From Paratrimastix pyriformis (lineage: Eukaryota; Preaxostyla; Paratrimastigidae), in NCBI GenBank assembly GCA_027972325.1, contig JAPMOS010000079.1, forward strand, positions 112,430 to 176,429: a stretch of DNA of 64,000 nucleotides, in the 5' to 3' direction. Of the stretch, positions 1,671-57,428 are shown piece after piece. Below the pieces are notes generated by a model that was given only the letters and a program-made list of their open reading frames with translations, searched no databases and had not been told where the DNA came from. The first letter of the stretch is position 1; each line of letters opens with the position of its first letter. Both the position numbers and the translations under genes were made by a program.

Positions 1671-2987
1671 ATGGTCAAGATTTGCATGCTCACATTTTCG
1701 CTCACTGGCAATACGGCGCATGTGGCCCAAGTCATCGCCAGCAAGCTCGAACCCACACATCAGGTGACCCACGTCAACCTTGTTCACTGTTTGCAAGGTA
1801 AAGATGTCGAAATCCGTCAGATGCATGACAGTTTGGCTGCATGCGATGTCATCGGATTGGGTTCGCTTGTCTGGGCCGCTCTGCCGGCTCCCAAGATGGG
1901 CGACATGATTCGGAAATGTGACACGGCCTCGTTTCAGGGGAAGCCCGCCTTCATCTTCTCAACCGATGGTGGCCACGCGGGCGACACACGCAATGTGATG
2001 GCCGAGTGGTTGGCCGAGAAGGGCGCCATTCCCGTGGCCCAGTTCGGCTGCTATGCACCTTCCAATTGGAGCCCCGGCGTGCCCGCGAAGCCAAATGTCT
2101 GTTGATTCGCATTTTCGAGTCCTCGCTCACCACCGGGACCCACGACGATCTGTGCGTTGTTGCGCGGCGCAGGTTGACCGTTGGGGCACCGAGGATATCG
2201 AGAAGGCCGCCCATTTCGGGGAGGAGCTCCTCGCACTCTTGGCACGCTATCAATCGGGCGGCCGCTCGGCCTTGGTCCCGATCACCTTTCCGCGGGGGAA
2301 GGCCGCCAAAGAGGCCGCCCAGTCGCGGTCCATGACCAACCGTCCGTACGAGCGCACCCTCCTCGGGACCTTGCTGCGTGTCTTTGGGAACCCACCCAAC
2401 ACCCCTTCTCTTTGTGTCGCAGTGGCCGGCCAGATTGCGATCGACCGGACGCGGTGCGTGGGCTGCCGGGTGTGCGTCAGCCGGTGCCCGTACGGGGCCC
2501 TTGACATCGAGGACGGGGCCATCCACCCCCGCTGGTCCTCGGCCAAGTGCATGTCGTGCACCCTGTGCGTCAACCTCTGCCCCAAGGAGGCCATCTCCCT
2601 GCCCCGCTTCCGCACCAACGACCGGAGCAAGTACGTCTTCAAGCCCACCGAGATCGTCCAGGTCCGCGCCTCGGCCCCGCCCGGTCGGAACCGCTCGGAT
2701 GGACCTCGTCTCACTTTCTGCGCGCTTCTTATTGTGCTGCCTGTGGTCACGGTCAGGGTCCCAGCCAGCGGGCCCCCGGCAACGCCATCAGCCGCCTCCT
2801 TCGCATCAGCTCCATCTACTTCAAGGTCCGCAGGCTCCTCCAGCGCACATGAAGACGATCTCACCTCTCTTGTCTATCCTCGCAGGCCACCCTGGTGGCG
2901 ATCCTTGTCGCCGTGCTGGTGGTCTTCGTCCTCCTGGGCTGGGTCAGTGTCCGTGGGGTCAGCAAACTCGTCCGGCGCCACATCTAG
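1671..2987 (+). CDS. Flavodoxin-2[4Fe-4S] ferredoxin fusion with C-terminal membrane anchor
   Basis: Five exons (1671-2096, 2173-2379, 2434-2661, 2757-2825, 2886-2987) sum to 1,032 nt, 343 residues, all joined in phase 0. Residues 1-142 form a flavodoxin-like FMN domain. Its phosphate loop is FSLTGNT, close to the FSGTGNT of bacterial EFR1-type flavodoxin-ferredoxins. Exon 3 carries two CxxCxxCxxxCP clusters, CVGCRVCVSRCP and CMSCTLCVNLCP, each a [4Fe-4S] site. The last exon is a hydrophobic helix, ATLVAILVAVLVVFVLLGW, followed by a basic end KLVRRHI. That predicts a tail anchor with the redox domains in the cytosol. Likely role: low-potential electron transfer at a membrane. The start is the methionine next to the flavin loop; in-frame codons upstream look non-coding. 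The membrane tail is unusual for the family. Confidence 0.85.
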
Positions 2988-3375
2988 GAGCTCTTCGCGG
3001 TGTGACGGCGTCCTGTGGTTTTGTACAACAATAACTGGAAATGACTCGGCATCCTCATCGTATGACATCGGCGTGTGGTGCTGGGGAGGAGGAGGGGAGG
3101 AGGAGGGGATGCACCACTCACTCGGGGACACGATTGCGCGATGGTTTGAGGTTGCCCCGGGTGTGGACCAACTGGAATTCACGCGGTTTGCCGATCGGAT
3201 CAAGTCCGGTTGGGAGAACCGAAAATCGCGAACATACCCGAAGAGAGTTTTCGCCCTGCTCGGGTTGACAGCTATTCGACATGGCGAAGTGCGCAGAGGT
3301 CCGGCTTCGAAGCGTGCCCCACGCGGTGGTCCGCGATTCAGTCGGGGGAGCGAAGAGGGTTCCCTGTGTGAACCC

Positions 3376-4640
3376 TCATGTCACATTCTCCTCGTCCCAC
3401 CGCAAATCTTCGACGACGGGGGTATCTGCCCCCGAGGTCGGGGAGACTGGCCGAGACGGGGAAGTGCGCGAGGGCGAAGATCCCCGGTGTATCATTGGGA
3501 CGTCATCGAGGGCCGTGAAGTACGCTGCGATGCGGTTGGCCAGGGCCGGCCCAACTCTTCGCATTCCGCCCACCTATCGACCGGATTTTGGTGGGCGGGC
3601 TTTGACGGTCAAGATCGGCAGACCTTTGTGATGTAGGGCACCATCTCGAGGCTCTTTGGCCCCCTGCTCTCCAAAGCGGCCACCAGGGCTGGCATACTTG
3701 GAAAGACATCGGCAATGACCCTGAATCGTCGTGAGCACAAAGGGAAAGAAGTGCGAGGAGTCGATAGACTTGGCAACGGGCGATGAGACGCCCTCGAGTT
3801 GTTCGAGGGCCCGCTGCCAGAGCTCCTTTTCGGTCAATTCGCTCTTGGGGCCGCGCAAGACGACGGGCTTTTCGGCGTGGCAGTAGGGCCGATGGGCGAT
3901 GGCGCCCGTGATGTTTTGCACGTGCTCCACCAGCTCGCCATTCCCCGAATAATCGAAAAAGGTCCACCCGTGCATCTGTGGGGAGGGAGGCGTGAGCGTG
4001 GCCATGTTTTCGATACAGCCGACAAGGTGACCAACACCGCCGGTGGGGAGGGATGGAGGAGGAGGAGGAGAGAGAGAGGGGGGCTGCGGACCTCGAGCCA
4101 GGTAATCGCCTCGCCGACCGTAAAGGCGTCCAAGGCTTTTGTGACCTCAGGCCCTTTCCCAGACGCGGTCTTTTTACAAAGAGTGTGACATGCCGACGTC
4201 GTCAGGTAAGAGAAAATTGTTTGGACCGCGAGCGAAAAGCGCCCCTAACACACTCAAAAATGCAGTCGATGGATGAGAAGACCATGACAGACCGCGGGCT
4301 TCTGACGGATACATTCTTGGTGCCACTGACCCAACGTGTTCTGCTGGATGCGGGTGCAAAAGTCGCCAGGTGACATAGAAATGAGGACATCTCCCTCATC
4401 GGCGTAATGATCATCCTCACCCGAACCGGCAGAAATCTTCCGGCGCCATTCAACACTGCCTCCAATTGCACAAGGATGGACAATAGTGTCAATCTGCTGG
4501 AATCTGGGTTTTCCCGAGAATGGTGACAATACACAGACACCTAAATCGATCAGAGACTCAAAGATGGCCGTCCCGAGTGTCGACCCGGAAAAGTGCGGGT
4601 CGAAGAGTACCTGAATTTCAGGGAGGCAGTTTTCGCGGCT
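3376..4640 (-). CDS. EME1-like structure-specific endonuclease subunit (MUS81 partner)
   Basis: The gene is read on the minus strand from about 4640 down. The first visible exon has FDPHFSGSTLGTAIFESL then IVHPCAIGGSVEWRRK, matching the degenerate ERCC4-type fold of EME1, whose landmark is the Pro-x-Ser-x-Trp-Arg-Arg segment. A middle exon has ALDAFTVGEAITWLEV. The next has WTFFDYSGNGELVEHVQN, ITGAIAHRPY and LWQRALEQLEGVSSPVAKSI, like the EME1 linker and the VWRRQIQQLNRVS region. The C-terminal exon has RRVGPALANRIAAYF, the helix-hairpin-helix end RRIGPELSRRI of EME1. EME1 lacks nuclease residues itself and positions MUS81 on branched DNA. The 5' end is unresolved: no methionine precedes the first visible exon, and a first exon could lie opposite the Asterix gene. 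Internal splice sites are approximate. Confidence 0.7.
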
Positions 4641-4846
4641 CCGTGATTTTTTGGCTGCGTGTCACTATTTAAAATGACACACGGTAAAGTGGTTAACCAG
4701 ACACAGTGCCGTGGCAAGCTCGCGTTGCCGTTTCTTGGAGCTTTTTGTGTTCGCGGGTGGTGCCGCGTCTTCCGCTGTGGAGGAGCGCCGCCGCGGTGGG
4801 GTTGCCGGACGCTGTTCCATCACCGCGGCATTTCCCCGTCATCTCG

Positions 4847-5187
4847 ATGCAACCCGACCCGCGCCGGCCGGCCAAAGCGCGTCCGTACGTCCCCCAGCTT
4901 TCCGAGCCTGAAACCCTGTGGGCGATGCTCGCCATGATGACTGGTATCTTTGGGCTGATGCTCAAGCAGAAAATTTTCTCATGGTCCGATCCGACGACGT
5001 TTGCCTTCGTTTCGTTCACGTCTTGTTCAGGGTGGCCATTTATTGTTCCGTGATTTCCTTTGTGAACCGCCGGGCGAGCGATAATTCGAGCGGGCAGCAG
5101 TCTATGATGTCACTCCTCTTCTCTGGGATGAGTTTGGTTATGTCTTATTTCGGCCCCCAGCCCGTCAAACTTCCGCCCAAACTCTGA
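4847..5187 (+). CDS. Protein Asterix (WDR83OS/PAT complex subunit)
   Basis: Two exons, 4847-4983 and 5031-5187, sum to 294 nt (97 residues; animal Asterix is about 106). The intron is 47 nt with a GTCCG donor and splits a Trp codon. The N-terminus MQPDPRRPAKARPYVP matches the DPRRPNK...RY start of Asterix. Two membrane segments follow, around MLAMMTGIFGLMLKQK and VAIYCSVISFVNRR, then SLLFSGMSLVMSYF and the short tail PQPVKLPPKL. The VAxYCSxISFxN signature is diagnostic. Asterix pairs with CCDC47 in the ER as an intramembrane chaperone that shields polar transmembrane segments during multipass protein insertion. The gene is convergent with VPS28; the 237 bp between the two stops look like 3' UTR. 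Confidence 0.92.
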
Positions 5188-5424
5188 CCCCGGCTCTGCG
5201 ATCTCTGGTGTCCTTCCTTCCTCTCTTTCCTTCCTCCCCAACATCCCGTTTCGCCAGAGGAGAGCCTTGTTTTCTTGGGTGGCAGCCAACTGGGCGATGC
5301 ATCTCTCTCCCTTCCCCGCCCTGCGGCGGACCATTCCTTTCGCGATTTTTTCTTCCCAAAGCAGATCCACAAAAAATGAAAGGAGGGTGAGAAAGCGCAA
5401 AATGACAAAGTCGGTAGGGGGTGC

Positions 5425-6383
5425 TCAAGAGAGGGCATTGTGAAGGGCCTGGAAGGCCGTGTCCAGGTCGAAGTTCAGCTCGCGGGTCTGGTCGGGGTTG
5501 AGCTCGTCTTTGGCGTGCATCCCGTTGAGGATCTGCAACCTATGGGTGGCGGAGGATCATGACACCGGACGGCTGCTTGTGTGTGTGCTGGGAGACGGCG
5601 TGGTAGAATCAGTCACGGACCATTTGGCAACCCGGGCCTTGCCGTCGTATTCCGGGGGGAGGTCGACTTTGTTCAGAGCCGTCATCAGGTCGGCCAGCAG
5701 GGGGTGCAGCTGGTCGCAGGCCACCATACCCAGCCGAATCGAGTCCATGGCCGTGATGAAGAATTGCACCTGATGGAGACAAGCGGAAGAAGTGTGAGGA
5801 GGACGGAAGGCAGCCCCGAGAGCCCATCAGGGGGGAGAGGAAGTCGCAAACAGACAGTCTCAAAAATGTGCTTTTTGTCGCGGAGTTTGCTCCCATCGAC
5901 AGCTGCATGCTCCGTGGTGGCGGGAACGCCGGTCGTCAGAAGGCGGTTGGCGGCTGCGCGGCACTCGAGCTGTCATCATCGAAATCACAAGAAACCAGTG
6001 AGTTGACAAATGCTCGAGAAACCGCAGCGAACCTTGTACTCACGCATAAATCTGATGACATCCTCATTCGTGAAGTGGAGGATGCCCTGGAGCATCTTAT
6101 ATTGGCCGATGAACTTCGAGCAAAGAGGGGTATATCTGTGGTGGCCATCGAGCGTGAGAGAGTTATCTCGTAAAATGCAAACGCAGACTCTTCAGCAGGA
6201 ATTGCGTCGCTAACATAGGCTTTCTCGAGCTGATCGACCACAATAATTAGGGAATAAAGTTCCGAGAGATGGTCGAGTTTCTCCCGATCTGCCACGGACT
6301 CAACCAATGAGGACAGATCTACGGATGACAGAGATGCCTAAAAAGAGGTTGAGCCTCCAAAGAGGGCAGTTTCGCAAGACCAT
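5425..6383 (-). CDS. VPS28: VPS28, ESCRT-I subunit
   Basis: Six exons on the minus strand: 6383-6381 (ATG only), 6337-6189, 6135-6033, 5969-5856, 5769-5621, 5539-5425. They sum to 633 nt, 210 residues (human VPS28 is 221), with every junction in phase. The N-terminal core has VADREKLDHLSELYSLIIVV and LEKAYVSDAIPAEEYT; then SKFIGQYKMLQGILHFTNED. The C-terminal four-helix domain has QFFITAMDSIRLGMVACDQL, LPPEYDGKARVAKW and ends FDLDTAFQALHNALS. VPS28 binds VPS23/VPS37 through its N-terminus and ESCRT-II through the C-terminal domain, for multivesicular-body sorting. The proposed first coding exon holds only the start codon, followed directly by a 43-nt intron. That part is inferred from phase closure; the rest is firm. 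Confidence 0.93.
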
Positions 6384-6547
6384 CGTGCCGTGTTTTGCGA
6401 GAATGACGTTTGGGGTTTGAATGGCCTTTCCGGAATTCCCCCCCCCCCACCCACCCACCCACCCACCCACCCAGGCCCACCACCCTCTCGAGGACAAGAG
6501 TGAGATGCGCACTCCAACCACTTCCACCTGGCAACAAGAGAAAATGT

Positions 6548-7828
6548 CTATTGAACCGGGGTGGCCACCAAAACGGCTTCGTCCGCCATGCCAAGAGCGG
6601 AGGGCGTGTCCTTCACGGGGTCGATGGTACGCCCCTGGAAGTTGAACCGATAAGGGCGCCCGAGCTTCTTTCGGAAGAGGTCCGCCAGGGGGACCAGCGG
6701 CTGGGAGGCAAATGTCTTCACCCGGACAGGCGGAGCCCCCGGAATCGAGACGACAAGCCACACAGTGGGAGGGGCCTGTGGACGCGGTGGTGGTGGTGGT
6801 GGTGGTGGCGGCGGCGGCGGCGGCGGAGGTGGAGGTGGTGGCGACGGCGGTGGAGGTGGTGGTGGTGGTGGCGGCGGCAATTTGGCCATTGGTGGGGCAG
6901 GCGGAGGCTGCCCGGGCCCGTGGTGGCGGATGGGCAGAAGAACCTCACCCGAAACGACAGGCGGCGAGTGCGAGACGGGCGGCGGAGATGGCGGCGCAGA
7001 TACCCCCGGAGCGAGGCTCAGATCGATCTGCGTCTCACTGTCGCAGTCCATCTGGCGCGGCGTGCTGTCCACGCCCAGGGGCAGCCCGTCGAGCAGGAAC
7101 CGGTACTGGTCGACGGTACCCCCGTAATGTGCCGCGCACCGGGCAAAGGCGCGCGAAAAGGGGGCATCCAGCGACAGCCGCACCATGAAAGACGCCTCCG
7201 GATCTCGCCTCCCGGGGTGCGCCCAGGCCGGCTGGAACCGCAGCACAACACGACCCTCCTGCTCACTGCCGGTGGCGCCTGCGTCCGAGGCGGCGGGGCG
7301 GAGGATCGGGGCGGGGGCAGTAGATGACCCTCGGGCAAGAATCGGGAGCGAGATCGCTCGGTGTGGGGACGGCGGCCTCGGGGGGTGCAGCACGATGGGC
7401 TGCTCCTCGGCCGACCGGAGGATGAGGTCACGCTCGCGGGCGGCACGGCGCAACTTGTCGAGAAGTGTGTGCGCCTCCTTCAATTCGGGAATTTCTTTGG
7501 GCTTCACTTCTGTGGGGGAGAAAACCTCGGGGACCTCAGCTGGGGGAGGGGGAAGTGGCTCGTCTGGCACTTCAAGGAGATCGACCGCTTCCTCCGATTG
7601 CTCCACGGTAGAGCGCGCCTTCTTCGTCGTTGTGCTTTCTGGAGGAGGTGCAGTTTTTGGTGGTGGTTCGTGGAAGTCCTTCTTCGAGCGCTTCTTCCGT
7701 GCAGGCTTGGAAACTGGGAAAAAGGAGGGGGCCGCAGCTGCTTGGCCAGAATCATCAGAATGCAAAATTTTTGAAAGTAGATCATTATCACCAGTTGTTC
7801 CGAAATCAAAGATGTCATCCTCGGACAT
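6548..7828 (-). CDS. Rad60/Esc2/NIP45-like protein with tandem SUMO-like domains
   Basis: Single exon, 426 residues. The acidic N-terminus MSEDDIFDFG is followed by a Lys/Arg-rich stretch (KPARKKRSKKDF), a probable nuclear localisation signal. A coil with LLDKLRRAARERDLIL follows. The first ubiquitin-like fold (about residues 190-270) contains GRVVLRFQPAW, VRLSLDAPFSRAFARCA, YRFLLDGLPL and ends DSETQIDL. A poly-proline spacer encoded by GGT/GGC-type triplets (about 6783-6887) leads to a second ubiquitin-like fold (about 350-425) with VWLVVSIPG, LADLFRKKLG, YRFNFQGRTIDP and DEAVLVATPV. Two SUMO-like domains after a charged N-terminus is the Rad60-Esc2-NIP45 plan, which supports genome stability by SUMO mimicry with Ubc9 and the SMC5/6 pathway. 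The start is the first ATG. Confidence 0.78.
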   Translation of the reverse strand: MSEDDIFDFGTTGDNDLLSKILHSDDSGQAAAAPSFFPVSKPARKKRSKKDFHEPPPKTAPPPESTTTKKARSTVEQSEEAVDLLEVPDEPLPPPPAEVPEVFSPTEVKPKEIPELKEAHTLLDKLRRAARERDLILRSAEEQPIVLHPPRPPSPHRAISLPILARGSSTAPAPILRPAASDAGATGSEQEGRVVLRFQPAWAHPGRRDPEASFMVRLSLDAPFSRAFARCAAHYGGTVDQYRFLLDGLPLGVDSTPRQMDCDSETQIDLSLAPGVSAPPSPPPVSHSPPVVSGEVLLPIRHHGPGQPPPAPPMAKLPPPPPPPPPPPSPPPPPPPPPPPPPPPPPPPRPQAPPTVWLVVSIPGAPPVRVKTFASQPLVPLADLFRKKLGRPYRFNFQGRTIDPVKDTPSALGMADEAVLVATPVQ

Positions 7829-7914
7829 GGCCGCGCAAGGCGAGCGATCGCGTCTTTTCGATGTTTAGTTGAGCTCGCCTTTGGGGTTCCACTCACTCTA
7901 CAGGCAATTTGCCC

Positions 7915-10900
7915 ATGAAAGTTGTGGGACTTATTAGTGGAGGAAAAGATTCCCTTTACTCGCTTTACGTCGCTCAACAGCAAGGGCATGAAATTATTGC
8001 TGTGGCCCATTTACAGCCGCCACAAAACAGTCTGTTGAGGGCAAAACTCGTAATATTCAATACTCCGGTTGGGATGAGCAGCTGATGAAATGGACTCTTT
8101 TATGTTCCAAACTGTTGGTTCAAATATCGTCGATCTAATTGCGGAATGTCTTCAAATGCCCCTTATCAAGCGTATCATTCATGGGTCTGCATTTGCACGT
8201 CCTTCTTATCGGTCACCCGACGTTTCTGGTGTGCCTCTAGCTCTTCCGTCTGTAAGAGAATGATGTACGACCCCACGCCGAACGATGAAATCGAGGACCT
8301 TTTCGAGTTGCTGAAGGAAGTCAAGGTCGCCCCGGGGATGGTGCGCCGCCATGTCCCCGCTCATCGCCCAGTCCGATAGTGCCGCTTCCCCCAAGTGGAA
8401 GCTGTATGTACGGGTGCGATTGCGTCGGATTATCAGCGAATTCGCGTCGAGAACGTGTCTGCCCCCCCCCCCCCCCCCCCCCCCCTCGCTGCTCGCCCTT
8501 TCGTCGCCCTTTCGTTGCCCTTCGTCGCCCTTTCGTCGCCCTTTCGTCGCCCTTCGTCGCATTCTGATGGCCTGCTGGCGGCCTGCTGGTGGCCTGCTGG
8601 TGGCCTGCTGGTGGCCTGCTGGTGGGGTCGGGGCGCAGCTGTGAGCGTCTGGGGCTGGTTGCGCTGGCCCCCCTGTGGCGGCGGCTGCCCTTCGAGGAGC
8701 TGCTGGCCGACCTGCTCGACTCTGGCCTCAGCTGCGTTCTCATCAAGGTGGCAGCCATGGGTCCGCTGCGCCCCCCGCCCGACCCGCCCCCCGTCTCTGC
8801 CCCCGTGGGGATTCCTCTCATTCTCGTTCTCGTTCTCGTTCTCGTTCTCGTTCTCGTTCTCGTTCTCATCTTCGTCACCACGACGCTCCTCCCCGCCCCC
8901 CATCCCGCTCTGTGCCTCGTGTCCTGCAGGGCTCACTCCGGGCCGCTTCCTGGGGCGGACCCTGGACGAGATGTACGAACCGCTCCTCGACCTGGTCCAT
9001 CCCGCCCTGCCGTGGGCGGGGATCCTGCCTTCCACGCCTCCTGCCTCACCCGCCTCTTCATGCCTCCCCATGCCTCCCCATGCCTCCCCATGCCTCCCCA
9101 TGCCTCCCCATGCCTCCCCATGCCTCTCCGTGCCTCTCCGTGCCTCATCTACCTCACCCGACCTCGCGGCTGCTTCCCGGGCGGCGCTTGGGGGGGCCGC
9201 TACCCGTTTCGGCAGGGTGCCGAGTGCCAGGTGAACGTCTGCGGCGAGGGCGGCGAGTACGAGAGCCTGGTCCTCGACTGCCCACTCTACCCCGCCAACC
9301 GGATCGTCCTGTCCGTCGCCCGTGCCAGATCGTCGCCCCCCCCCCCCCCCCCCCCCCCGCCCAGCCCAGCCTTGTCAAATATCGCTGCGGGTTGCCGGGG
9401 CGCAGGGAGGAGGTGGAGCGGGTCGTGACGAGCGCGGACCCCTTCTCGCCGCTCGGCTACCTGCGCATCCTGCGGGCCCGGCTGGCCCCCAAGCCCCCCG
9501 TCGCCGCCCCTGCTGCCGGCCCCCGGCCGCGGCCATTCCACGACCGCTACCTGCGCCTGGTGCGCCCCGCCACGCTCCGGCCGGCTGAGCCCCTCGGCCC
9601 CGGGCTCCTCCCTCCCGCCGACGAGGAGGCCACATCGACTCCGGGGCAGCAGCCGCACACCGGGGGCCCAGACCCTCCCCAGGCCGCCTACCGAGGGGCC
9701 CAGGGGGCCTCGGTCGAGGAGGCCGTCCGCCAGCTGTTCGCCGTCTGCGGTGGACCTGTCGATGGGGCCGAGGTTTTGGTGGGGACCCACGCCGTCCTCC
9801 GCGACCTGGCCGACTTCGCCGCCCTCAACGCCGCCTACGCCGCATGCACCGTGGCACTGCCCTCCGCCCCCGCGGTCCCCGTTCGGTCTGCCCTGATGCC
9901 CGCCACGCCCACGCCCACGCCCACGCCCACGCCCACGCCCACGCCCACGCCCACGCCCTCGCCCTCGCCCACGCCCTCGCCCTCGCCCTCGCCATCGATG
10001 CATCCGAATTTGGGTCTGCTCATCTGAATTTGGGACTGGGTGTGGTGTGGGACGGCGGCGCAGGAGCGTCGTCCAGTGCGCTTTGCCCGCGGGGGTCCGG
10101 GTGGCCCTGGGAGCCGTGACCATCCCACGCCCCCTCGCCGGTCTGCTCGGACATCTTTCGTGGTGCCCCGGGGGGCCTGACAGGGGGTGCTCACCCGCTC
10201 CCCTGGCGATTTGGTTATGGGGCAGGCCGCCTGTTGGGCTCGGGGGTGCGAGTCAGCTCGCGCTCGGGCTGGGCCCCGTCCATGCTGGGCCCCTACGGGC
10301 AGGCCCTGGCCCTGGGGCCGGTGACCCTGCTCGCAGGCATGATCGGGCTGAGGCCCCACTCGATGCTGCTGGCCGCGGCCAACCCGCACCGGGCCGCCTC
10401 GTCACACCCGGCGGCACACGGAGAAGAGGAAGAAGGGCCGGCGGCCCGGGACCTCGAGGCCCAGGGGGCCCAGGCGGCCCACAGCTGCGCGGCCGTTCTG
10501 GAAGCGGCCCGCTCGTCGCTGGAGCGGGTTCTGTCCACCACGGCCTACCTCGCCCCGGGGGGCGCGCCGCTGACCCGGCTCCTGCCCGCAGTCGATCGGT
10601 GGGTGCGCTCTGCCCAGGCGGCCTCGGCCCGGCGGCGCGCCGTGGAGCGGACCCTGAGCCAGCGCCAGCCGCGCACGCGGGTGCTGACGGGGGGCCTCCC
10701 GGTCGACATGCCCCACGACGACGACGAGACGGAGGATGGCGCCGAGGAGGAGGCCATCGGTCAGGGAGTCGCCGAGGGCTGTTCGGGCCGGGCGAGCCTT
10801 GAGCCCGATGAGGGCGATGAGGGCGATGAGGGCGATGAGGGCAGCCTGGCGAGGGCTGCGGGGAGCTGGCTCCTCCTTGTGCGGGTCGGCTCGCTGCCCC

Positions 10901-11303
10901 GGCAGGCCTTGGTGGAACTGGAGCCGGTTGGGCTGGCGTGCCCCCCGACCGAGGCGGCGCCGCTCCCTCCCCTGCGGGAGCTGCGCATCTCACCCCAAGG
11001 GCGCCCCTGGGGCGGGCGCCTTTCAGCCAGTGGCCGGTGCCTCGATGGGCAAGCAGCTTGCGGGGCGGTCGAGTTCACCTGGGGCAAGGAGGATCACCAC
11101 CCCTCCGACGGCCGCGAGGCGGGCCGGGAGATGGCCGAGGCACTCGCGGTCCTTGTTGCCCGGTCTGGTGGTCTTCACGCCCACCCCTCATTCGTGAGTC
11201 ACTTCGTAGCTCCGGTCTGGGGCCGGACCACCTCTTTGCCCTGCGGCTCTTCCATCGGATGTCGTGCGCGGAACTCTGTGCCACGTGGTGCGAGGGTCTG
11301 TAG
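7915..11303 (+). CDS. DPH6: Diphthine-ammonia ligase DPH6 with two C-terminal RidA-like domains
   Basis: About a dozen exons. Exon 1 (7915-8029) opens MKVVGLISGGKDSLYSL, the PP-loop ATP pyrophosphatase motif SGGKDS. Then come DEMDSFMFQTVGSNIVDLIA, PNDEIEDLFELLKEVK, FPQVEAVCTGAIASDYQRIR, NVCERLGLVALAPLW, IKVAAMGLTPGRFLGRTLD and VCGEGGEYESLVLDCPL, all signature DPH6 segments in order. SADPFSPLGYLRI closes the ligase domain. Two RidA/YjgF-like domains follow, the first around VEEAVRQLFAVCGG to VVQCALPAGVRVALG, the second opening GWAPSMLGPYGQALALG. This is the same layout as yeast Dph6. DPH6 amidates diphthine on eEF2 in the last step of diphthamide synthesis. Introns range from about 52 nt to over 180 nt; several carry simple repeats. 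The last junction (GTCTG donor) gives the ending HLFALRLFHRMSCAELCATW and stop at 11303. A few middle splice sites are approximate. Confidence 0.9.
8457..8638 (+). repeat. Repeat-filled DPH6 intron (poly-C plus two tandem repeats)
   Basis: This 182-nt intron begins GTCTG and ends GCGCAG, splitting the codon between ENV and CERLG. It contains a C-tract of about 23, then near-repeats of cgccctttcgt (about 8495-8560), then about five copies of ggcctgctggt (about 8571-8625). The flanking exons are fixed by homology, so the repeats are intronic. Confidence 0.85.
8821..8867 (+). repeat. (TTCTCG)n hexanucleotide repeat in a DPH6 intron
   Basis: About eight copies of ttctcg lie inside the intron between KVAAMG and LTPGRF. 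This intron starts GTCCG and ends CTGCAG. Confidence 0.85.
9060..9150 (+). repeat. 10-bp tandem repeat (tgcctcccca) in a DPH6 intron
   Basis: Six exact copies of tgcctcccca are followed by degenerate copies. The intron separates the exon ending LLDL from the one starting GAECQVNVCG. Confidence 0.85.
9904..9995 (+). repeat. (CCCACG)n and (CCCTCG)n repeats in a DPH6 intron
   Basis: Hexanucleotide cgccca units run to about 9957 and shift to cgccct units. The intron follows PSAPAVPV (donor GTCTG) and ends GCGCAG before VVQCALPAG. Confidence 0.8.
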
Positions 11304-11656
11304 CTGCTGGCCCCGTCATGCTTTCATTCGCCACCAGGTTTTCGTCAAGCTTGTCCGGCCGCAAGCTGGTGTACCCCGCTGTGCATTCCGGTCGCAGGTC
11401 CGGGAGAGCCTTCCTGCATCAGGTCCGAAAAAAAACTCCCCTTTGTAGAGTTGGCCACAGTGCAGTGTCCCGAAGGGTTGGCACTGGCGCTCGAATTCAG
11501 AGCCATGAAACAGTAAAGTGTCAGAAGGGAACAATATTAAGATGAATTTCTTTGAGAAAAGGACCTTTAAAAAAAGGTCTTTTTTTGGAGGGGGTAGGGG
11601 AGGGAAAGAGAGGGCTCACGAGGTTGGAGGTGACCACCAGCCAGGATGCAGCTCCT
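11304..11656. other. Convergent intergenic region between DPH6 and histone H1
   Basis: This holds the 3' ends of two converging genes. Apart from the stem-loop candidate at about 11561-11586, I see no coding or RNA feature. Confidence 0.5.
11561..11586 (-). terminator. Candidate 3' stem-loop downstream of histone H1
   Basis: On the minus strand, about 75 nt past the H1 stop codon, GACCTTT and AAAGGTC can pair as a 7-bp stem around a four-T loop. Length, loop size and position resemble the 3' stem-loop of replication-dependent histone mRNAs. The base of the stem is not the usual GG/CC, so this may be a chance inverted repeat. Confidence 0.3.
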
Positions 11657-12439: not shown

Positions 12440-12492
12440 GGTTTGGACTGAAGTTGGTGGTCAAGGATTAGTGCCGAGCAAATTCGCTGCCC

Positions 12493-12500
12493 TATTTATA
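12493..12500 (-). promoter_or_regulatory. TATA-like box of histone H1
   Basis: TATAAATA on the minus strand, about 55 nt upstream of the H1 start codon, in otherwise GC-rich sequence. Confidence 0.5.
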
Positions 12501-12822
12501 TCATCAGAAAGCGGCGGGCTTGTCGCTCATGCCAGGGTAACTGAGGCACTCTCTCTGATTCTCGCACCGACCCGACTTGTCAGCCGTATAGTTCGGTAAC
12601 TAGAAGGTCCCCACGAAAAATTCTTGAATTCCCTGGTAGCCAATGTCCCGGACCTCCGTCCTATCGGGATCCGGAGCTTCTCTGCGCAAGCAGGCCACGC
12701 CCATTTGTGACAGAACGCGAACGTAGAAGCACAGTGGGCCAGCAGGCCTGGGTTTGGGGACACGCACCTCGTTCCACGGATCGGCTGGGTCTCCACAACA
12801 CGAAATCATGACCCCTCGCGTC

Positions 12823-49200: not shown

Positions 49201-51982
49201 GCCATGCCATGCCATGCCATCCCATCCCAGGCCATCTTCTCAGGGGCCCCTGTGGGATGGAGAGACGGGCGGCAGACCTCGAGGCCCAGGCGGAGGAGGC
49301 CCTGGCGGAACTGGGGGGCCGTCACCCGGTACGTGCCCTCCGGGTCGAAGGGCTTGAAGGCCGCCAGGGCCACCCGGTGCAGGTGGTGCAGGTGCAGGGC
49401 CACCTGGCGGGGCCCCCCCAACCCAACACCACAGGCGCACGGGCGGCGAGGGGAGGCGGTCAGACGGCAAGGCCATCCCGCCATCCCGCCATCCTCCCCC
49501 TCCCCCCCCCCCCCCCCCCCCCCTCCCCCCACGGGACCCGAAGGCGGGTGGGCGGGGGGGCGGACCTTATCCAGGACGGCCTCCCCGTGGCGGGGCAGCT
49601 CCTGGGGGGCGACGCCCTCGGGGACCACGCTCGGCAGCCGCGTCCTGCGGGTGGAGGCGTTCACCAATCAGGGGCGAGCCGATGGGCGGGCGGCCACGGG
49701 AGGCGGCGGGGCTGAGGCCGGGGCGACCTGTCCTTGGCCTGGAAGCACCGCTGGAAGGCCCCGAAGGAGATGCGGCCCGTGTGGGCCCCGTCGACCCGGC
49801 GCAGGATGCTCTCCAGCGAGCGGGGCGGCAGGTCCATCCCCAGCCGGGTCAGCCCCTGCGCCCACCACCCCACCCCAGCCCGCCGCCACAGCGGCCGCCG
49901 CGGACCCGACCCGGCGGTGAGGTGGGAGGGGAAGAGGCACAGCCCGAGCCGGTGACCCTCAACAGCCTGGACCGGACCGGACCATGGGGTGTGCAAAGGA
50001 GGGCGAGGGCGTGGCGGCGTGGCGGCGGGGGCGTGTGCGCGCCTGGGGGGGGGGGGGGGGGGACCTGTGAGCTCCTCGGGGGTTACGGTCCCGTCGCCGT
50101 CGCGGTCCATCAGCCCGAAGATCCGCCGCAGCTCCGCCTGCCGCTGCCCAGCCGGCCGGCCGGCCAAGCCCCAGCCCCCCCCAAACGCAGCCCGCCACAC
50201 ACCCGAGTCGAGTCTGGGGTGAGGTTGCCGCTCCAGACGACGGGCACGCGCGCACACAGACACAGACACAGCCAAACACAGCCAGACGACACAGGCACAC
50301 AGACACAGACACAGACACAGACACAGACACAGACACAGACACAGACACAGACACAGCCAAACACAGCCAGACGACACAGGCACACAGGGTGCAGGGCCCT
50401 GGCGGACCTTGGCCGCTGCCATCTGGGGCTGCTGGGGCCCCGGGGATGCCGGCTGTGGGTGCGGACCGCCGGAGGGCGAGGAGGAGGGCGGCCGGGGGGC
50501 GGGGCGAGGGGACCCGATGCTTGCCGTGGGTGCGGGGGCGGCCGGGGAAGAACCGCCAGCAAGGGCCGGCGGCTCAGAGGGGGCGCTGCCTGGGGCCGCC
50601 TCGGGGGTGGTCGGTGCGACAGGCCCGGCCGGTGGCCGTGTGGATGGCAATGACGGGGCCGGCGGGGAGGGCCGGAGGGGGGAGGGGTGCGAGGGAAGGG
50701 CCCGGCTCGGGCTCGGGGGCGGCCCCGACGGGGGCGGGCGGCAGCGGGCTGGGCTCGGGGGCGGGCGAGGGCTCCGGCGGGGTCGCCCCCCCGGGTCGCA
50801 GGGCCTGCGGGGTGGGGCCGCCAGACCCGGGGGTGGCGCCGGCCGCTGGTGGAGGGGCCTGTCCGGGCGGGGCGCCCGAGGACCCCGGGGCGGGCGGGTG
50901 GGGGGAAGGCCTCGGGGAGGAGGCGAGCGGGGGGCTCCCGTGGGCGGGTCCCTGCGCGGGTGCCGGGCTGCCCTCGGGGGAGCTCCTGCGCCGACGGCCG
51001 TCAAAACCCGGCCCGATGATGTGAGGAAGGGAAGAGTGAGGAGGAGCGGCCCGTGGAGAGTGGAGAGGAGGGGACGGAGAAGGAGGGTTGGGGGACGGGG
51101 CGGAAGGGACGGACGGGTCGGAGAGGGCCGGGCTGATGGTCACCAAGGGCAGAGACGACTCCTCGATCGGCCCCCGTGTGTCTGCCGGGGATGGCGGCTT
51201 CGAAGGCAGCGAGGGCGGGATGACGGCCGCACGCTGACCAGGCGGCCGCGGAGGGGAGGGTTGCTGGGTGGGGGCTGAGTGGGATGGCGGGGAGCGCGGG
51301 GAGCGCCGCTGGGTGCCGTGCAGGACTGAGGGGACCGAAGGTGTCACGGGGGTTGCGGGGCTGTGCATGGGCGGGACCATAACTGCTCTGGGGGAGAGCG
51401 GCACATCCCGGGGGGAGAGCGCCTGGCGCGGGCTGAACAGGGGTCGATCCGAGGCCGACGAGCGCGGCGTCGCGGGCAGGACGGCCCGCAGGGGGTACCG
51501 TTGTTGACCAGGCCGAGGTGATACAGGTGACTGGGGCGGGCCTACGGGAGTTCGTGGGGAACTGAGCGGGGCAGAGAGAGCAGCTGGAGACGGGGCGGGG
51601 GCGACCCCCATCCGCGCCTGCAGGCCGCGGAGGAAGGAGGGGTAATGAATCGTTCCATGCGACGTTAAATCAGCCTTACGAATAAAGCTGGCGATGTGCT
51701 GATCGCTCAACCCGAGTCTGGCGTTTTTCAACCCTGGCAGAAGAAAAAGCGATCAGCAGGAAATCGGAAAATCGGGCGAACCGCAGAGAAGTTGATAGGG
51801 AGTGACAAATCCAGTATGAGCAGGGTCAAATTGAAGAAGAGCCCCGAGAGCCTGCGCAAAGCGCGGAGAAAGTGCTTGCTCCGTCTGGGGAAAACATAAA
51901 GAGGCTAGTTCAAAGACATTGCAAAACGGACATAGAGGTGTGAAAAATGGGCTTCCGAGAAATGGTCGTGCATCCCGATCAT
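46232..51982 (-). CDS. Long multi-EF-hand protein (EFCAB6-like), copy B
   Basis: Read 51982 downward. The first exon MIGMHDHFSEAHFSHLY joins (GTCCG donor) to TEQALSPRFAQALGALLQFD and PAHTGFVTPYQLL, then GLKNARLGLSDQHIASFIRK and DLTSHGTIHYPSFLRGLQ, an EF-hand pair. After a long Pro-rich stretch there is a canonical loop LMDRDGDGTVTPEEL, then LTRLGMDLPPRSLESILRRV and GRISFGAFQRCF. Further degenerate hands include FKPFDPEGTYRVTAPQFRQG, LAAFRRLDPQRGGLLAPPDF, AVSGSPEAIDYGRFLVHMGL and AMGRLSPRGLRDALAEAHVR. The last exons have DREGLIQAGDLTKALLLDDL and end PPTASPRPAS. The architecture and intron style are those of gene A, so the two are probably paralogues, with the OB-fold and HIT genes between them. 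Exact exon borders were set for only part of the gene. Confidence 0.65.
47855..47988 (-). repeat. (GGGGC)n pentanucleotide, about 27 copies, intronic
   Basis: Almost perfect gcggg units in EF-hand gene B; the reverse strand reads poly Pro/Ala/Arg in all frames. G-quadruplex formation is expected from the G-runs. Confidence 0.9.
49119..49236 (-). repeat. CCATGCCATCCCATCCCAGG minisatellite, intronic
   Basis: Higher-order array of gccat and cccat pentamers with ccaggc spacers, between exons of EF-hand gene B. Confidence 0.85.
50262..50360 (-). repeat. (ACACAG)n hexanucleotide, intronic
   Basis: About ten cacaga units flanked by two copies of agccaaacacagccagacgac. In an intron of EF-hand gene B. 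Confidence 0.85.
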
Positions 51983-52703
51983 GCCATTATCTCGGCTACA
52001 ATCCAGCTCGGCAGCCCCAACTCCAAAAATCGAGCGAGTAGCAAGGACCTCAGGAGAAACCGACTCGCTTTTATTTGAAATGGAAGCGTTGTGCCTAAAC
52101 GGCTGGGACACTGAATCGGTGTGATGATGGCAGCAGTGGAGGGAAGAGGAAGAAGCGAGGACTTTCAGTTTCGAGCTCTTACCACAAAGTTCAATTGAGA
52201 ATCTAATCCCATAGCCACGTGGCTCCAGCGGAGGTTGATCGGCTGATCGGACGCTGATTAAGCGGAAACAAGTCCCCCCCCCCCCCCCCCCCCGCCACCC
52301 CCTGCCCGGGTGGGGTGGGTGGGTGGGTAGGGATGGGTATGGGTGGGCAGGCATTCTTCCACACATACATGACGGTGAGGATGCATTGCCAGCAGCCGAC
52401 GCACGGTTGGAGGGCCCGAATCGCCACTTCTTGGAGTGCCGGACGGGCACTTGCCACCAGCCCGCTACCAGGTTCCCTCGGTTGGGTGCGTGTGCGACTG
52501 CTTCTCCTCCGTGGACTGCACGCTGGCATATATGCCGGGACCGGCGCGCGAGAGAGTGGAAATGCCATCCGAATGCGCTTTTTACCGAAGTATGATGGCC
52601 CGGAGCTCCCCTGGTAAAAAATGGAGGGGCAAAAATATACATGCGTATTGTACGGTCCCTTTCGCCGTTGCAACGAAGACGGTCCGTCTGTCACGACCGA
52701 TGA
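51983..52703. other. Divergent gap between EF-hand gene B and COP1-like gene
   Basis: Contains a C-tract of about 27 at 52267-52293 and a ggtgggt run just after it. Several open frames on both strands lack recognisable domains. In particular I looked for a RING finger upstream of the COP1-like WD40 gene and did not find a CxxC...CxH...CxxC pattern that splices in. Confidence 0.4.
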
Positions 52704-53825
52704 ATGGCGGCGGTTACCGCATTCAACCCCCAAGTTATTCTCACTCTCACCATTTTGTGCGGTCCACCAACTCCCGCACCGCCTGTCCCGCTGCCTTCCA
52801 GACCTGGCTTCCAGCACCCCATCACCTTCTCTGATTTCCAAATGCCACTCACTCGAAAAGGCATTTACCAGTCTGCTTTCGCCGCACATTAGTTGTTACA
52901 TTCCGTCATTTTTCCGACTCTGTAGATGACGACATTCTTCCGTCGCTACCGACAGCTATCGATTTCTGCGATCCTTCTCTCTTCCACAACAACTCCCCCA
53001 ATGACGACATGGCTGAGATTATGTCATCCCTGACCAGACTCTTTGACATTGGTGCAGAAAGATTCCTCTGGATCCAACAGACACACATCCACAATCTACC
53101 TCTTCTCTCGCTCTTTGCCGCCTTCTTTATCCAATTTTTTGTCATGGCCCAACAACTGCAAGAGGAACAGCCAGTTTTCTCAGAGGGAATCTTGGCTTCC
53201 TTTGATAATTTCATTGCTCGGGTTGACCGAGTGCTTTACGAGCGTTTTTTTGCCCCTTTTCTGCGCAAGCCTCCATCCCCACCGCCCGACACTGCCCCGG
53301 TTCCTGCCGCTCCCCCCGAGCAGCCCCCTCCGGTGTCTCCCTTGGGCCAGGCGTCGTCCTTCTCTTTGGGGAAGCACACCAGATGCGAGGCCCTTGCCTC
53401 AGCCCTGCGCCGCACGCGGTCTCGGGTGGAGCGGGCGACCGTCCTCAGCTCCTCTTTTGGCCCCACCACCACCACCACCACCGCCGCCCACTCCCCAGAG
53501 CCCCTCCGCTCTGCTGCCGTCAAGCAGACCAGCTTGACACCCGCAAGGCCAGCTCTCTGTCCCTCCGTTCGGTCTGGGCTTCCTTCATCCTCATCCTCGG
53601 GCTGATCCCCGCTTCGGCGGCTCCCCACCCAGCCTGCAGCACCACGCCGCCGTGACGTTTGGCGATCGTCTGCACGGCGATTGCCTGATCACCTCGGTGG
53701 AGTTCAATGCCAGCGGTGACCTCCTTGCGGCTACGGGGGTCTGTGCCTCGCCTGCCCCCCAGCCAGCCGAGCCGCCAGAGCCGCCACGATGGCGCTTGTC
53801 CCAACCCGACCCAATCCAATCCGAC

Positions 53826-53863
<38 letters not shown>

Positions 53864-55321
53864 ACCCTCAGGTGACCAAGCAAATTGCCGTCTACGACGC
53901 CCAGGTCATTTTGGCTGCCCCGCACGCGCCCCACGTGCCCATCCTCAAGCTGCCCTGCTCGGCCAAGCCCACGTCTGCTCGGGGCTTCTGCTCATTTGGG
54001 TTGGGGGGTGAGCCTGCCCGCTCGCGACCGCCGGCTGATGCTCACATTTTCGGGGGGATGGCGCCGCGTTGTTGCAGCTGCTTGTCGTGGGATCGGACGG
54101 GGGCGCACACCCTGGCCAGCTCGGACGCCGAGGGGACCGTCTCTGTCTGGGACGTGGCCCGGGCCGCCACGGGGTGCCCGCCCGCCCGGACCCTGAAGGC
54201 CCACCCGTCCCGGGTGTGGAGCCTGCAGTACAGCCCGCTCTGCCCGGGCCGGCTGGTCACGGGCTCCGACGAGGCCCGCGCCCGCGTCTGGGAGGCCAAT
54301 GCCCCCGAGGCCGTGTGCACCATCAAGGCCCCTGCCAACGTGTGCTGCGTGGCCTGGGACCCCGTCTCGGCCTTCCATCTGGCCCTGGGGCTTGCCGGTC
54401 CGCCGCCCAGCCAGACCCTCGGGGGCATCGAGCTCACCCGTCCTTGTCGCGCATCGGTGTGTGCGTGTGCGTGTGCGTGTGCGTGTGCGTGGCGGCGGCA
54501 ATCCATGGGGGCCCACAGACCACCGCGCCCTCTACTTCGACCTGCGCCGGCCCGACGTGGCCCTCTTTGCCATGACCGGCCACCGCCGGGCCGTCTCCTT
54601 CCTGCGCTTCCTGCCCCACAGCAGCGACTTCATCACCGCGTCCGTCCGAACCTCCGCGCCCCCCGCTCCTCTTCCCCCTCGCCCCCCGCTTGCTTGTATT
54701 GACGTTCCATTCCGTTTGTGGCTCTGCGTGGCGGCAGGTCGATCGACAGCTCCCTCCGCCTCTGGTCCACCTCGACGGGCGCCTGCCAGCAAGTCTTCAC
54801 TGGGTCTGCGCCTGCGCCCTGCCGGCACTCGCCTCTCCTTGGGGGAGAAGGGGGCCTCGACAACCCTGCGGGCGGATCCTGTTTTCCCTCGTGGCGCTCA
54901 CGGTCCGTTTGGGTCGGGGTTGCGGGTTGCCGGGTCCTCAGACACACCAACACGAAGAATTTCACCGGGCTCGCCGTCGCCGAGGGTCGCATCGCCGTGG
55001 GCTCGGAGACCAACCGCGTGGTGGTCTACGACCCCCACAAGCCCACCCCCGTCCAGGAGTGCCCGATGGAGCGGGCAGTCAACCAGGTCCGCGGCGTTTC
55101 TTCTTCTCTCCCGACATCGCTCATCCTCGTCGCCCCTTCCGCTCCCGATGCAGCCCGTGTGCGACATCATGTCCGAGTGGGACTCTCTGACTCCGCCCAA
55201 AAGCGCCTTCGTCTCATCGCTGTGTTGGCATCCGTTCAAGCCCCTCCTCGCCGCGGCCAACAACCAATCACTCATTAACTTCTACGTTGCGCCGTGCCCC
55301 GAAGAGATTGCACGTTCTTAA
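52704..55321 (+). CDS. COP1-type WD40 protein (RING not found)
   Basis: The C-terminal two thirds are seven WD repeats in the COP1/SPA style: ITSVEFNASGDLLAATGV, TKQIAVYDAQVIL, CLSWDRTGAHTLASSDAEGT then VSVWDVAR, SRVWSLQYSP, LVTGSDEARARVWE, ANVCCVAWDP, ALYFDLRRPDVALFAMTGHR then AVSFLRFLP, VDSSLRLWSTSTG, HTNTKNFTGLAV and GSETNRVVVYDP. The phrases ASSDxEGxVxVWDV, GHTNxKNFxGL and GSETNxVxVY are COP1 signatures. The gene ends at 55321. Upstream exons, joined by GTCCA, GTCTG and GTTCG donors, give NDDILPSLPTAIDFCDPS, a hydrophobic stretch LLSLFAAFFIQFFVMAQQ and a disordered region. COP1 is a CUL4-DDB1-linked ubiquitin ligase subunit; without a visible RING this may act as a substrate adaptor. The start at 52704 is inferred from phase. 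Confidence 0.75.
53826..53862 (+). repeat. Poly-C tract of about 37 in a COP1-like intron
   Basis: The longest homopolymer in the window; it sits just before the acceptor CTCAG of an intron that starts GTCTG, in the pyrimidine-tract position. Similar C-tracts precede acceptors near 710, 8485, 9359 and 26281 on this strand. Confidence 0.9.
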
Positions 55322-55411
55322 ACACTTTGGCCCCTCCGGGGATCGTTCTCCGGCGCCGGGAGGCCTCCACACCGCGGGTTCTAGTTGCCCTTTCAAATAG
55401 GCCACACCGCG

Positions 55412-57428
55412 ATGAATTTCAAAACCCAAACGACGCTCTTCTCGTTTATGAAGCCCATCGAGAAGAAACATGCCCGCGGAGAGGCGGTGTCAGAAGAAAA
55501 GGAGGAAAAGAAGCCGCGACCATCAACCCCTGCTTCTCCATCAAAACCCCATCTCCCGCCCACGAAATGCAACCGGCTCGGATGTTTTGGGCAATCAACA
55601 GGTTCGATTTCAGCGGGTTGAGTAAGGACAGTCGATTTTTTTTTTGGTAGACAAGGCAGGCGATTTGGAGAATCTAAAGGAACGCTGCAGAAAGAACCTG
55701 CGCTGCCCGCTCAAGGAAACTGCCAAGAATCTCGTCTTCGGGGACGGCAATCCCAACGCACAGGTTCTTTTCATCGGGGAGGCACCCGGGGAGCAGGAGG
55801 ACCGGACTGGGGTCCCCTTCGTGGGGCCTGCGGGCAAGTACCTCGACAGGCTGCTGGCCTCGTGCGGCCTGCGCCGGGGCGATATCTACATTGCCAACAT
55901 TCTGAAGGTCCGTGATCACCTCCCCCCCAGTTGCTGTTCCCCCGGCCGCACGCGTGATGTCATCGCCCTGAACCGAGTCGCTGGTGGTGGGATGGATGGG
56001 CGGCCTGTGGCCGGGGCTGCTGACGCGGTGGGGCGTGCAGTACCGGCCTCCAAACAACCGCGACCCGAAGCCCCAAGAGGTCAAGGACCACACGCCCTTC
56101 CTGCTCGATCAAATCCGGTCCGCACCCCGTCCGAAGCCACACCTTGGCATGCACACACGCGGCGACCCGCACACGACGCACACGACCGCTGCTGACGGGC
56201 CGATGGGACGATCCGGGGCGGGTGGGGCGCGACCCGGGCCGAGCAGGATCCTCCGGCCCAAGTTGGTCGTCTGCCTGGGCAACTTCGCCGCCAAGTTCGT
56301 CCTGGCCGGATTCACGTCCACCGGCATGTCCAAGGCCCGCATCCCCCTCCCGTGGCACGAATAAAGTGTTCCTCGGGACGACACGGTGTGCGCGTTCGTG
56401 TTTGCGGCGGCACGTGCGTGCGCTTTACTCGGCCCTGACCGGGGGGTGTGCGTGCGGCCTGCAGGTGGCCGGGATCACGAGCCTGCACGGGACCTTCCAG
56501 CAGGTGGCTCTGGATGGCGGCTCCCTCCGGGCCACCGTCTTCCCGGTCTACCATCCCGCCGCCGTCTTGCACAACCCCGACTACAAGTCTGCCCCGCCCC
56601 GCCGATCACCACCCTCGCTCTCCCGCTGGCCCTCCCCCTCCACCCCGCGCCCGGGTGATCATGATGACGGGTCGGGGGGGGCTGCCCCGCGCCGCCTGGC
56701 AGGACGGGCCTCGAGACCGACTTCCAGCACCTCCACCAGTGGGTCCAGGTCCGCTGCTCCACCCTACACACCCACCACCCGATCGGGGGGGCCGGCGAGG
56801 CATGGCTCACCACTCTCGGCTCCCTGCACGGCAGCGACACATCCTCGGTGCCGCGGCGGCCGGCACGACGGGGCCCACATCGCCCCAAGCAGCGGCCCCA
56901 ACCACATCCGCCGCCTCCGCCACGTCCACGTGCACGTCCACGGCCGGCCAGACGGCCGCTGGGCCCACCGAGGAAGCGGAGCACGAGGACCCCGAGGACG
57001 AGGACGAGCGGGCGCTCCTCGAGGCCGAGCGGGCCGCCTCCGCGCCCCATGCTGCCCCTGGAGCCACCCCGGACTCCACCACACCCCCGCCACCCGCTGG
57101 GGCTGCCCCGCCACCCGCTGGGGCTGCCCCGCCACCCGCTGGGGCTGCCCCGCCACCCGCTGGGGCTGCCCCGCCACCCGCTGGGGCTGCCCCGCCACCC
57201 GCTGGGGCTGCCCCGCCACCCGCTGGGGCTGCCCCGCCACCCGCTGGGGCTGCCCCGCCACCCACGGCCCTTCAGCCTCCAGAGGGCTCGGATGGGGGCC
57301 CTGACTCGGACGCCACGCAGGATCTCGAGGAGGCACCCCAGCCCCAGTCCCCGCCGGCCCCGGACCAGCCCACGGAGACGGAGGCCCCAGCCACGACCGA
57401 GCGGCTCCCCTCCACCCCCGGGCAATAG
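55412..57428 (+). CDS. Family 4-like uracil-DNA glycosylase with N-terminal PIP box
   Basis: Seven exons (55412-55601, 55651-55907, 56041-56117, 56247-56334, 56465-56586, 56703-56748, 56952-57428) close in phase. The N-terminus [15 protein letters not shown] carries QTTLFSFM, a PCNA-binding-box-like motif. The glycosylase reads [71 protein letters not shown] and [14 protein letters not shown]. GEAPGxxEDxxGxPFVGxAG and xYHPAA are the uracil-pocket motifs of the family 4 group. Upstream cysteines (CRKNLRCPL) fit part of its [4Fe-4S] site, though with C-x5-C rather than C-x2-C spacing. The C-terminus is acidic, with about eight 7-residue repeats of the AGAAPPP type. It excises uracil from DNA. 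Family 4 enzymes are mainly prokaryotic, so transfer is likely. Intron 4 is GC-AG (GCCCG). Confidence 0.87.
57090..57258 (+). repeat. 21-bp coding minisatellite (ccacccgctggggctgccccg)
   Basis: About eight perfect copies in the last exon of the uracil-DNA glycosylase gene, encoding PPAGAAP-type heptapeptides. Confidence 0.92.

Follow-up and report, generated by a model that had tools for sequence, protein, structure and literature searches.

Changed 5′ splice sites and a matching U1 5′ end in Paratrimastix pyriformis suggest compensatory co-evolution

Which letters open the introns of a genome, and which RNA reads them, is the question raised by a stretch of 64,000 nucleotides (nt) from Paratrimastix pyriformis, a single-celled, free-living anaerobic metamonad. 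The stretch (assembly GCA_027972325.1, contig JAPMOS010000079.1, positions 112,430 to 176,429, forward strand) was analyzed at its full length and is referred to as the window. An initial annotation, made from the letters of the window, held that most introns begin GTCCG or GTCTG instead of GTRAGT (R, purine; Y, pyrimidine). It offered three alternatives: a changed 5′ end of U1 small nuclear RNA (snRNA), weak dependence on U1, or stronger recognition by U5 and U6. The U1 sequence that reads the 5′ splice site (donor) is, to our knowledge, nearly invariant in other eukaryotes. The donor consensus of P. pyriformis is AG|GTYYGY, with CAAG|GTCTGT as its best form, moved from a GTRAGT-like one, and all eight U1 genes found carry a 5′ end that matches it. 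The explanation that we favor (probability about 0.9) is that U1 and the 5′ splice sites have co-evolved in a compensatory way and that the 5′ splice site code was thereby rewritten.

An independent intron set was taken from the eight CCT chaperonin genes, whose exons were located genome-wide with PF00118 (47 matches). The nine introns of CCT4, which lies in the window, were read by hand and then compared with a transcript protein. The other seven genes were aligned to CCT chains of the PDB with a spliced aligner limited to GT, GC or AT at the intron start and to AG or AC at its end, and otherwise donor-neutral. U2-type GT-AG ends were returned for 37 of the 44 aligner gaps and were present in 9 of 9 hand-read CCT4 introns; the 7 non-GT-AG gaps were dropped, 3 of them inside X-filled reference stretches, and the final set held 46 GT-AG introns (37 aligner-placed, 9 hand-read). 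GTYYG opened 40 of the 46 (GTCTG 21, GTCCG 13, GTTTG 6; six other pentamers occurred once each) and GTRAG opened none. By position, the counts were C 37, T 7, A 2 and G 0 at +3; T 30, C 13, G 2 and A 1 at +4; G 43, A 2 and T 1 at +5; and T 24, C 16, G 4 and A 2 at +6. On the exon side, −1 was G in 39 of 46. The U2-type consensus GTRAGT, with a purine at +3 and A at +4, was therefore not matched (purine at +3 in 2/46, A at +4 in 1/46). The set bears out the initial estimate that GTCCG and GTCTG make up about two thirds of donors (34/46), that a pyrimidine stands at +3 nearly everywhere, that G is kept at +5, and that GTAAGT-like donors are almost absent. The initial description of the remainder, as mostly GTCxx, GTTCG or GTTTG, gave GTTTG too little weight.

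Among the 1336 background GT dinucleotides of the CCT regions, 155 were GTYYG and 37 were GTRAG (enrichment of GTYYG among donors, 40/46 vs. 155/1336, binomial P about 2e-31). When the chosen donor was forbidden, the drop in alignment score (range 0 to 28) was ≥5 for 34 and ≥10 for 31 of the 37 aligner-placed introns, and GTRAG was the next-best start in none of the 37.

Eight junctions were backed by transcripts, at the amino-acid level (proteins predicted from complementary DNA). Residues 59-518 of spliced CCT4, spanning introns 3 to 9, were identical at 460 of 460 positions to the transcript-derived protein GAFH01001239.1 (EukProt); the protein from the window was 72% identical to CCT4 of Paratrimastix eleionoma. 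The eighth junction, at 2097, had been among the donors listed initially and gained the support of a protein derived from an expressed sequence tag (EST; Table 1). In each of the eight, the chosen pair was the sole GT-AG pair within 30 nt yielding the same protein. All eight donors were GTYYGY (GTTTGT 3, GTCTGT 2, GTTTGC 1, GTCCGC 1, GTCTGC 1).

Donor letters were also compared with guanine plus cytosine (GC) content. Intron GC was 0.56 where +3 was C (n = 37) vs. 0.47 where +3 was T (n = 7), and five of the six GTTTG cases of the CCT set sit in the less GC-rich introns of CCT4. Along that gene (57955-59844, minus strand) GC climbs from 0.52 to 0.65; introns 1-6 (GC 0.43-0.50) start GTATG or GTTTG, and introns 7-9 (GC 0.60-0.77) start GTCTG or GTCCG.

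A gene finder based on a hidden Markov model took its coding statistics from 3251 CCT codons, started from a flat GT donor and was applied to 166,945 bases (the window and other loci, CCT4 removed). Window GC was 58-75% per 4 kb. Round 0 was the donor-blind round, as later rounds reinforce their own motif and include false introns. The 44 round-0 introns that had full context showed C at +3 in 75% and G at +5 in 61% (GTCCG 16, GTCTG 5, GTTTG 1). A repeat in which donor context alone was required (45 introns) gave GTYYG in 23/45 and GTRAG in 0/45, vs. 1343 GTYYG and 385 GTRAG among 15,720 background GT on both strands. By round 4, 212 introns were called, including GTCCG 76 and GTCTG 29. At all ten sites listed in the initial annotation, GTCCG or GTCTG was present at the given position and strand. 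The donor at 2662 was called even with the flat GT donor; for that at 8457 the letters held, and the call came with motif learning (Table 1).

snRNA genes were searched in the assembly (56,060,509 bases, 495 contigs). With the Rfam U1 model (RF00003), 41 of 992 first-look candidates were scored (E up to 1), and eight U1 loci were obtained on eight contigs, each full length (1-166), with E values of 3.7e-13 to 2e-10 and 50.8-60.2 bits vs. a gathering score of 69.5. All eight carry ATACAGACCTTG, start ATACAGACCTTGCTTGGCCAGAAGCGCGATCA and have the 5′ end AUACAGACCUUG; the canonical end AUACUUACCUG was present in 0/8 U1 genes from the Rfam search and a pattern scan (canonical-type start, AUACUUACC; own-type start, AUACAGACC). 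Relative to the Rfam consensus AUACUUACCUGG, U5 is changed to A, U6 to G and G11 to U, and positions 5-6, facing donor +4 and +3, read AG where canonical U1 has UU. Of the three alternatives offered for the odd donors, a changed U1 5′ end is thus what the genes carry. Their first 58 nt are invariant in 8/8 copies, their flanks differ, and scattered differences occur further 3′. The four-way cloverleaf, the GAUCA loop of stem-loop I and the 3′ stem-loop are present (Rfam alignment; fold of one copy, z −3.4), and a CCCATAA element lies upstream of all eight. Judged by their sequences, these genes are probably the working U1 of P. pyriformis.

The pattern scan (AWACNNACCTN{14,20}GATCA) left U1 positions 5 and 6 free and fixed the GATCA of stem-loop I. 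It returned 24 matches, namely the 8 U1 genes and 16 with matched letters that do not resemble the U1 stem (AAACTTACCT in one case); the control gave 1. Two of the 16 were fetched and were tandem repeats. A second U1 type suited to GTCCG was considered in ATACGGACC, which occurs twice on one contig, but the 700 fetched bases were tandem repeat and the candidate was rejected. The partner RNAs were standard: the U6 ACAGAGA box in 4/4 genes (GAUACAGAGAAGAUU), the U5 loop in 7/7 matches (GCCUUUUACU) and the U2 branch-site sequence GUAGUA in the one copy read (10 U2 matches).

The element CCCATAA(TTTTTCC) lies about 53 nt upstream of U1. It also precedes every U6 and U5 match whose upstream side was read (3 of the 4 U6 and 6 of the 7 U5 matches), and perhaps serves as a promoter motif more generally. 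The combination of CCCATAA with ACNNACC 45-65 nt downstream occurred 214 times vs. 57 for the reversed control, partly via repeats. Inverted pairs of a dispersed repeat (CCCATAAAAACACACTGGCAAAG...), with 2-5 kb between the two members, were seen on several contigs; the repeat is perhaps a mobile element.

The P. pyriformis U1 end is the perfect complement of CAAG|GUCUGUAU. Against CAAGGUCUGUAU it forms 12 pairs, with a computed duplex energy of −17.2 kcal/mol (canonical U1, −7.3). Across the 46 CCT donors, mean duplex energy was −10.05 kcal/mol for the own U1 and −4.94 for canonical U1 when ends of equal length (12 letters) were compared, the own U1 being stronger in 44/46. With an 11-letter canonical end, the canonical mean was −4.38 kcal/mol and the own U1 was stronger in 45/46. 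At 300 random GT sites of the CCT regions, the own U1 averaged −4.5 kcal/mol. Over the seven positions from −1 to +6, the own U1 paired at least 5 in 45/46 donors, and canonical U1 at most 5 in any. At +3 the own U1 paired with 44/46 donors (37 Watson-Crick, 7 wobble) and canonical U1 with 2/46; at +4 the figures were 30/46 and 3/46. On the exon side, donors suited to the own U1 should have A at −3 and C at −4; the observed letters (−3, A 18 vs. C 10; −4, C in 21/46) are a weak fit in a C-rich genome.

The U6 sequence AUACAGA complements GTYTGY donors across +2 to +8. The first seven letters of the own U1 are also AUACAGA, in the same donor register, where canonical U1 (AUACUUA) and U6 differ at exactly the two nucleotides changed here. 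We propose that the donor consensus moved from a GTRAGT-like form to AG|GTYYGY with the U1 5′ end changing alongside. U1 would select the donor through ordinary base pairing, in which G6 faces C or U at +3 and A5 faces U at +4; once U1 has handed the donor over, the same letters, from +2 to +8, would be read by the unchanged U6 box (AUACAGAGA). Pyrimidine at +3 would have followed, or led, the change of U1 nucleotide 6 to G. With AUACAGA now common to the U1 end and the U6 box, one donor suits both RNAs, and the shared heptamer would remove conflict between the two recognition steps. Better U6 pairing comes with the new donors because U6 already complements GUYUGU. The U6 box and the U5 loop themselves are unchanged. 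Weak U1 dependence, the second of the initial alternatives, may also play a part, U1-C and U1-70K having gone undetected, but is not needed. Uracil at +4 may be older than the U1 change, because the oxymonad Streblomastix has A-U-G at +3 to +5.

A tentative extension, which we would not yet favor, is that U1 acquired the reading sequence of U6, whether copied from that RNA or reached by convergence, which would make the single donor UYUGUAU (+2 to +8) the optimum at both steps. If true, it predicts loss or tolerance of N6-methyladenosine (m6A) at U6 A43; METTL16 would possibly methylate U1, and A5 would read +4 in a relaxed way (U and C).

Several points weigh against compensatory co-evolution. 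GTCCG, which makes up 13/46 CCT donors and 76/212 introns of the last gene-finder round, leaves +4 mismatched (A·C) with U1 and U6 alike. Two of the 37 aligner-placed donors were weakly supported (score drops of 2 and 3) and one was tied (drop of 0). The U1 matches fall under the Rfam gathering score, partly perhaps since the model expects UUAC, and they come from the small scored share of first-look candidates. In the predicted minimum-energy fold, U1 nt 4-8 pair with the Sm region. Two U1 proteins were not found in the genome: U1-C, in a profile search from which split exons could hide it, and U1-70K, for which split exons could do the same and the positive control was silent. Finally, a METTL16-like gene is present, although METTL16 goes with +4 A in yeasts (PMC10581693).

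The mismatch at +4 was examined by composition and by exon context. Mean intron GC was 0.57 with +4 C vs. 0.53 with +4 T (P = 0.38), a smaller gap than the one at +3; as it was not significant, the idea that GC bias produced +4 C was set aside. AG stood at −2,−1 in 7/13 donors with +4 C vs. 8/30 with +4 T, which is no more than suggestive of a stronger exon match compensating for +4 C. Bare options for how GTCCG might be tolerated are a wobble pair of A with C, an inosine at position A5 of U1, and recognition mainly via GTC-G.

For the proteins, the sole zf-U1 match was considered as U1-C and rejected, being WBP4-like instead (48 vs. 31 bits). U1 proteins are nearly absent from other metamonads in one survey (PMC6679479), and absence of U1-C would ease change in the helix that U1-C contacts. 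A fragment of SNRNP27 is present. The METTL16-like exon, with its NPPFF motif, lies at contig C332:38824-39153 (minus strand); loss of METTL16 was therefore rejected as the cause of +4 U, and the yeast association is not simply transferable. That yeast study (PMC10581693) found no METTL16 orthologue among the Excavata in its survey.

Other explanations were weighed against the same data. Donors might be chosen mainly by U6 (and U5), with U1 pairing minor and the U1 end having drifted toward the needs of U6. The complementarity of GTYTGY to U6 over +2 to +8, the undetected U1-C and U1-70K, and Entamoeba, which has GUUUGUU donors and is said to lack U1 RNA (PMC13292270, PMC6085484), all suit such a choice. 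U6 makes no exon pairs, yet the −1 G of 39/46 donors fits U1 C9, and drift is not expected to leave 8/8 U1 ends identical and donor-complementary; we regard this explanation as unlikely. Still less probable, by a clear step, is that canonical U1 does most of the work and the eight genes are variant U1s or pseudogenes. The assembly searched is slightly smaller than that published (56.06 vs. 56.63 Mb; 56,627,582 bp, 60.94% GC; PMC10703272), 41/992 candidates were scored, and variant U1 is known elsewhere (PMC12621601). A canonical copy with the same body should, however, have outscored the eight in the Rfam search and matched the pattern scan, and none appeared; canonical U1 also pairs better with just 2/46 donors. 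Misplaced introns, or a motif produced by high GC and search bias, might be expected of a GC-rich genome whose introns were initially placed by eye, but the motif-free aligner and the gene finder in round 0 agree, GTTTG dominates the less GC-rich part of CCT4, and the eight transcript-matching junctions contradict it, which makes it scarcely credible. Minor (U12-type) introns have the unusual donors and nothing else in their favor and can be dismissed on the same footing: the U12-type donor RTATCC matches 0/46 CCT donors, and major-type U1, U2, U5 and U6 are present (U11, U12, U4atac and U6atac being outside the genome-wide searches).

Table 1. Genes, introns and donors of the window (positions in the window; | marks the exon-intron boundary).
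Feature	Positions	Strand	Donor	Basis
EFR1-type flavodoxin/ferredoxin gene, five-exon model	1671..2987	+		NCBIfam NF038196, 88 bits vs. cut-off 75; spliced translation open to TAG; junctions beyond the first are predicted
Intron	2097..2172	+	aaat|GTCTGT	EST EC837527.1 protein, 168/169 residues identical across junction; sole GT-AG solution within 30 nt
Predicted intron	2662..2756	+	ccag|GTCCGC	Gene finder; acceptor 2768 with flat donor, 2756 with learned motif; frame kept with either
Predicted intron	2826..2885	+	caag|GTCCGC	Gene finder after motif learning; frame closes
Predicted intron	8457..8638	+	acgt|GTCTGC	Gene finder in last round only, after motif learning; absent with flat donor
Donor of the initial annotation	55908..55919	+	gaag|GTCCGT	Letters confirmed at coordinate
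CCT4 (T-complex protein 1 delta) gene, ten exons, nine introns	57826..59905	-		PF00118 exons and hand reading
CCT4 intron 9	57955..58016	-	GTCTGC	Transcript protein; sole GT-AG solution
CCT4 intron 8	58527..58595	-	GTCCGC	Transcript protein; sole GT-AG solution
CCT4 intron 7	58773..58867	-	GTCTGT	Transcript protein; sole GT-AG solution
CCT4 intron 6	59153..59208	-	GTTTGT	Transcript protein; sole GT-AG solution
CCT4 intron 5	59293..59345	-	GTTTGT	Transcript protein; sole GT-AG solution
CCT4 intron 4	59405..59451	-	GTTTGC	Transcript protein; sole GT-AG solution
CCT4 intron 3	59561..59605	-	GTTTGT	Transcript protein; sole GT-AG solution
CCT4 intron 2	59696..59743	-	GTTTGT	Hand-read, homology
CCT4 intron 1	59797..59844	-	GTATGC	Hand-read, homology

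In the EFR1-type gene, EST EC837527.1 agrees with the gene model over 169 residues, beyond which it departs from the model, perhaps through a frameshift, a different allele or alternative splicing; the model requires a predicted intron with the odd donor GTGTCT at 2381-2422. Long poly-C/poly-G runs lie within or next to predicted introns at about 690-710, 985-1006, 8461-8485 and 9333-9357.

No report of these donors or of this U1 was found in the literature covered (titles, abstract starts and passages, with subscription journals mostly outside). The available text of the P. pyriformis genome paper (PMC10703272) has no mention of 'snrna' and contains 'splic' once, in the references. Its authors retrained Augustus. 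That gene finders trained on GTRAGT would mis-annotate this genome, as the initial annotation held, is plausible, and there is a practical bearing on the annotation of Preaxostyla genomes. The matched changes of donors and U1 suggest that a splicing code close to universal is open to rewriting in natural evolution. It becomes testable how a code on which thousands of sites depend can be altered, whether U1 and U6 preferences constrain each other, and which U1 proteins read the letters of the helix.

In laboratory U1 suppressors, compensatory 5′-end mutations, engineered for single introns, rescue altered donors. The P. pyriformis case is like these in that an altered donor is met by a matching U1, and unlike them in being natural and apparently genome-wide; nature appears to have run the classic compensatory experiment across a whole genome. 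In Saccharomycotina, a switch from +4A to +4U (GUAUGU) is tied to METTL16 loss; a change of U1 position 5 to A was proposed there as possible compensation, looked for and not found, and ACUUACC was invariant in U1 of 227 yeasts and 9 outgroups (PMC10581693). P. pyriformis shares with that switch the preference for U at +4 and the unchanged U6 ACAGA, and differs in three ways: U1 has changed at positions 5 and 6, so has the donor at +3, and a METTL16-like gene has been retained. Streblomastix strix, an oxymonad and thus from a related group, likewise has U at +4, G at +5 and short introns, but its +3 is A and conserved U1 pairing was inferred by its authors (PMC1501061).

Fritillaria borealis also departs genome-wide from the usual splice sites, but its U1 5′ end is strictly preserved and adaptation was assigned to U2AF duplicates and m6A (PMC13326754). 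In the Bigelowiella natans nucleomorph, as in Fritillaria, the U1 end is described as retained although donor motifs are aberrant or absent, and Giardia U1 as keeping ACUUAC. The diplonemid S. specki does have a U1 gene with an altered 5′ end; unlike in P. pyriformis, this variant is a second copy beside canonical U1, with a C-stretch, and its pairing with the usual donor is comparable, not better (PMC12621601). Entamoeba histolytica is similar in its donor letters: its GUUUGUU has pyrimidines at +3 and +4, G at +5 and complementarity to U6. U1 RNA was reported absent there for want of homology (PMC6085484, PMC13292270), whereas in P. pyriformis U1 is present and changed to match, which raises the question of whether organisms said to lack U1, such as Entamoeba, merely have a U1 whose 5′ end has changed and was missed.

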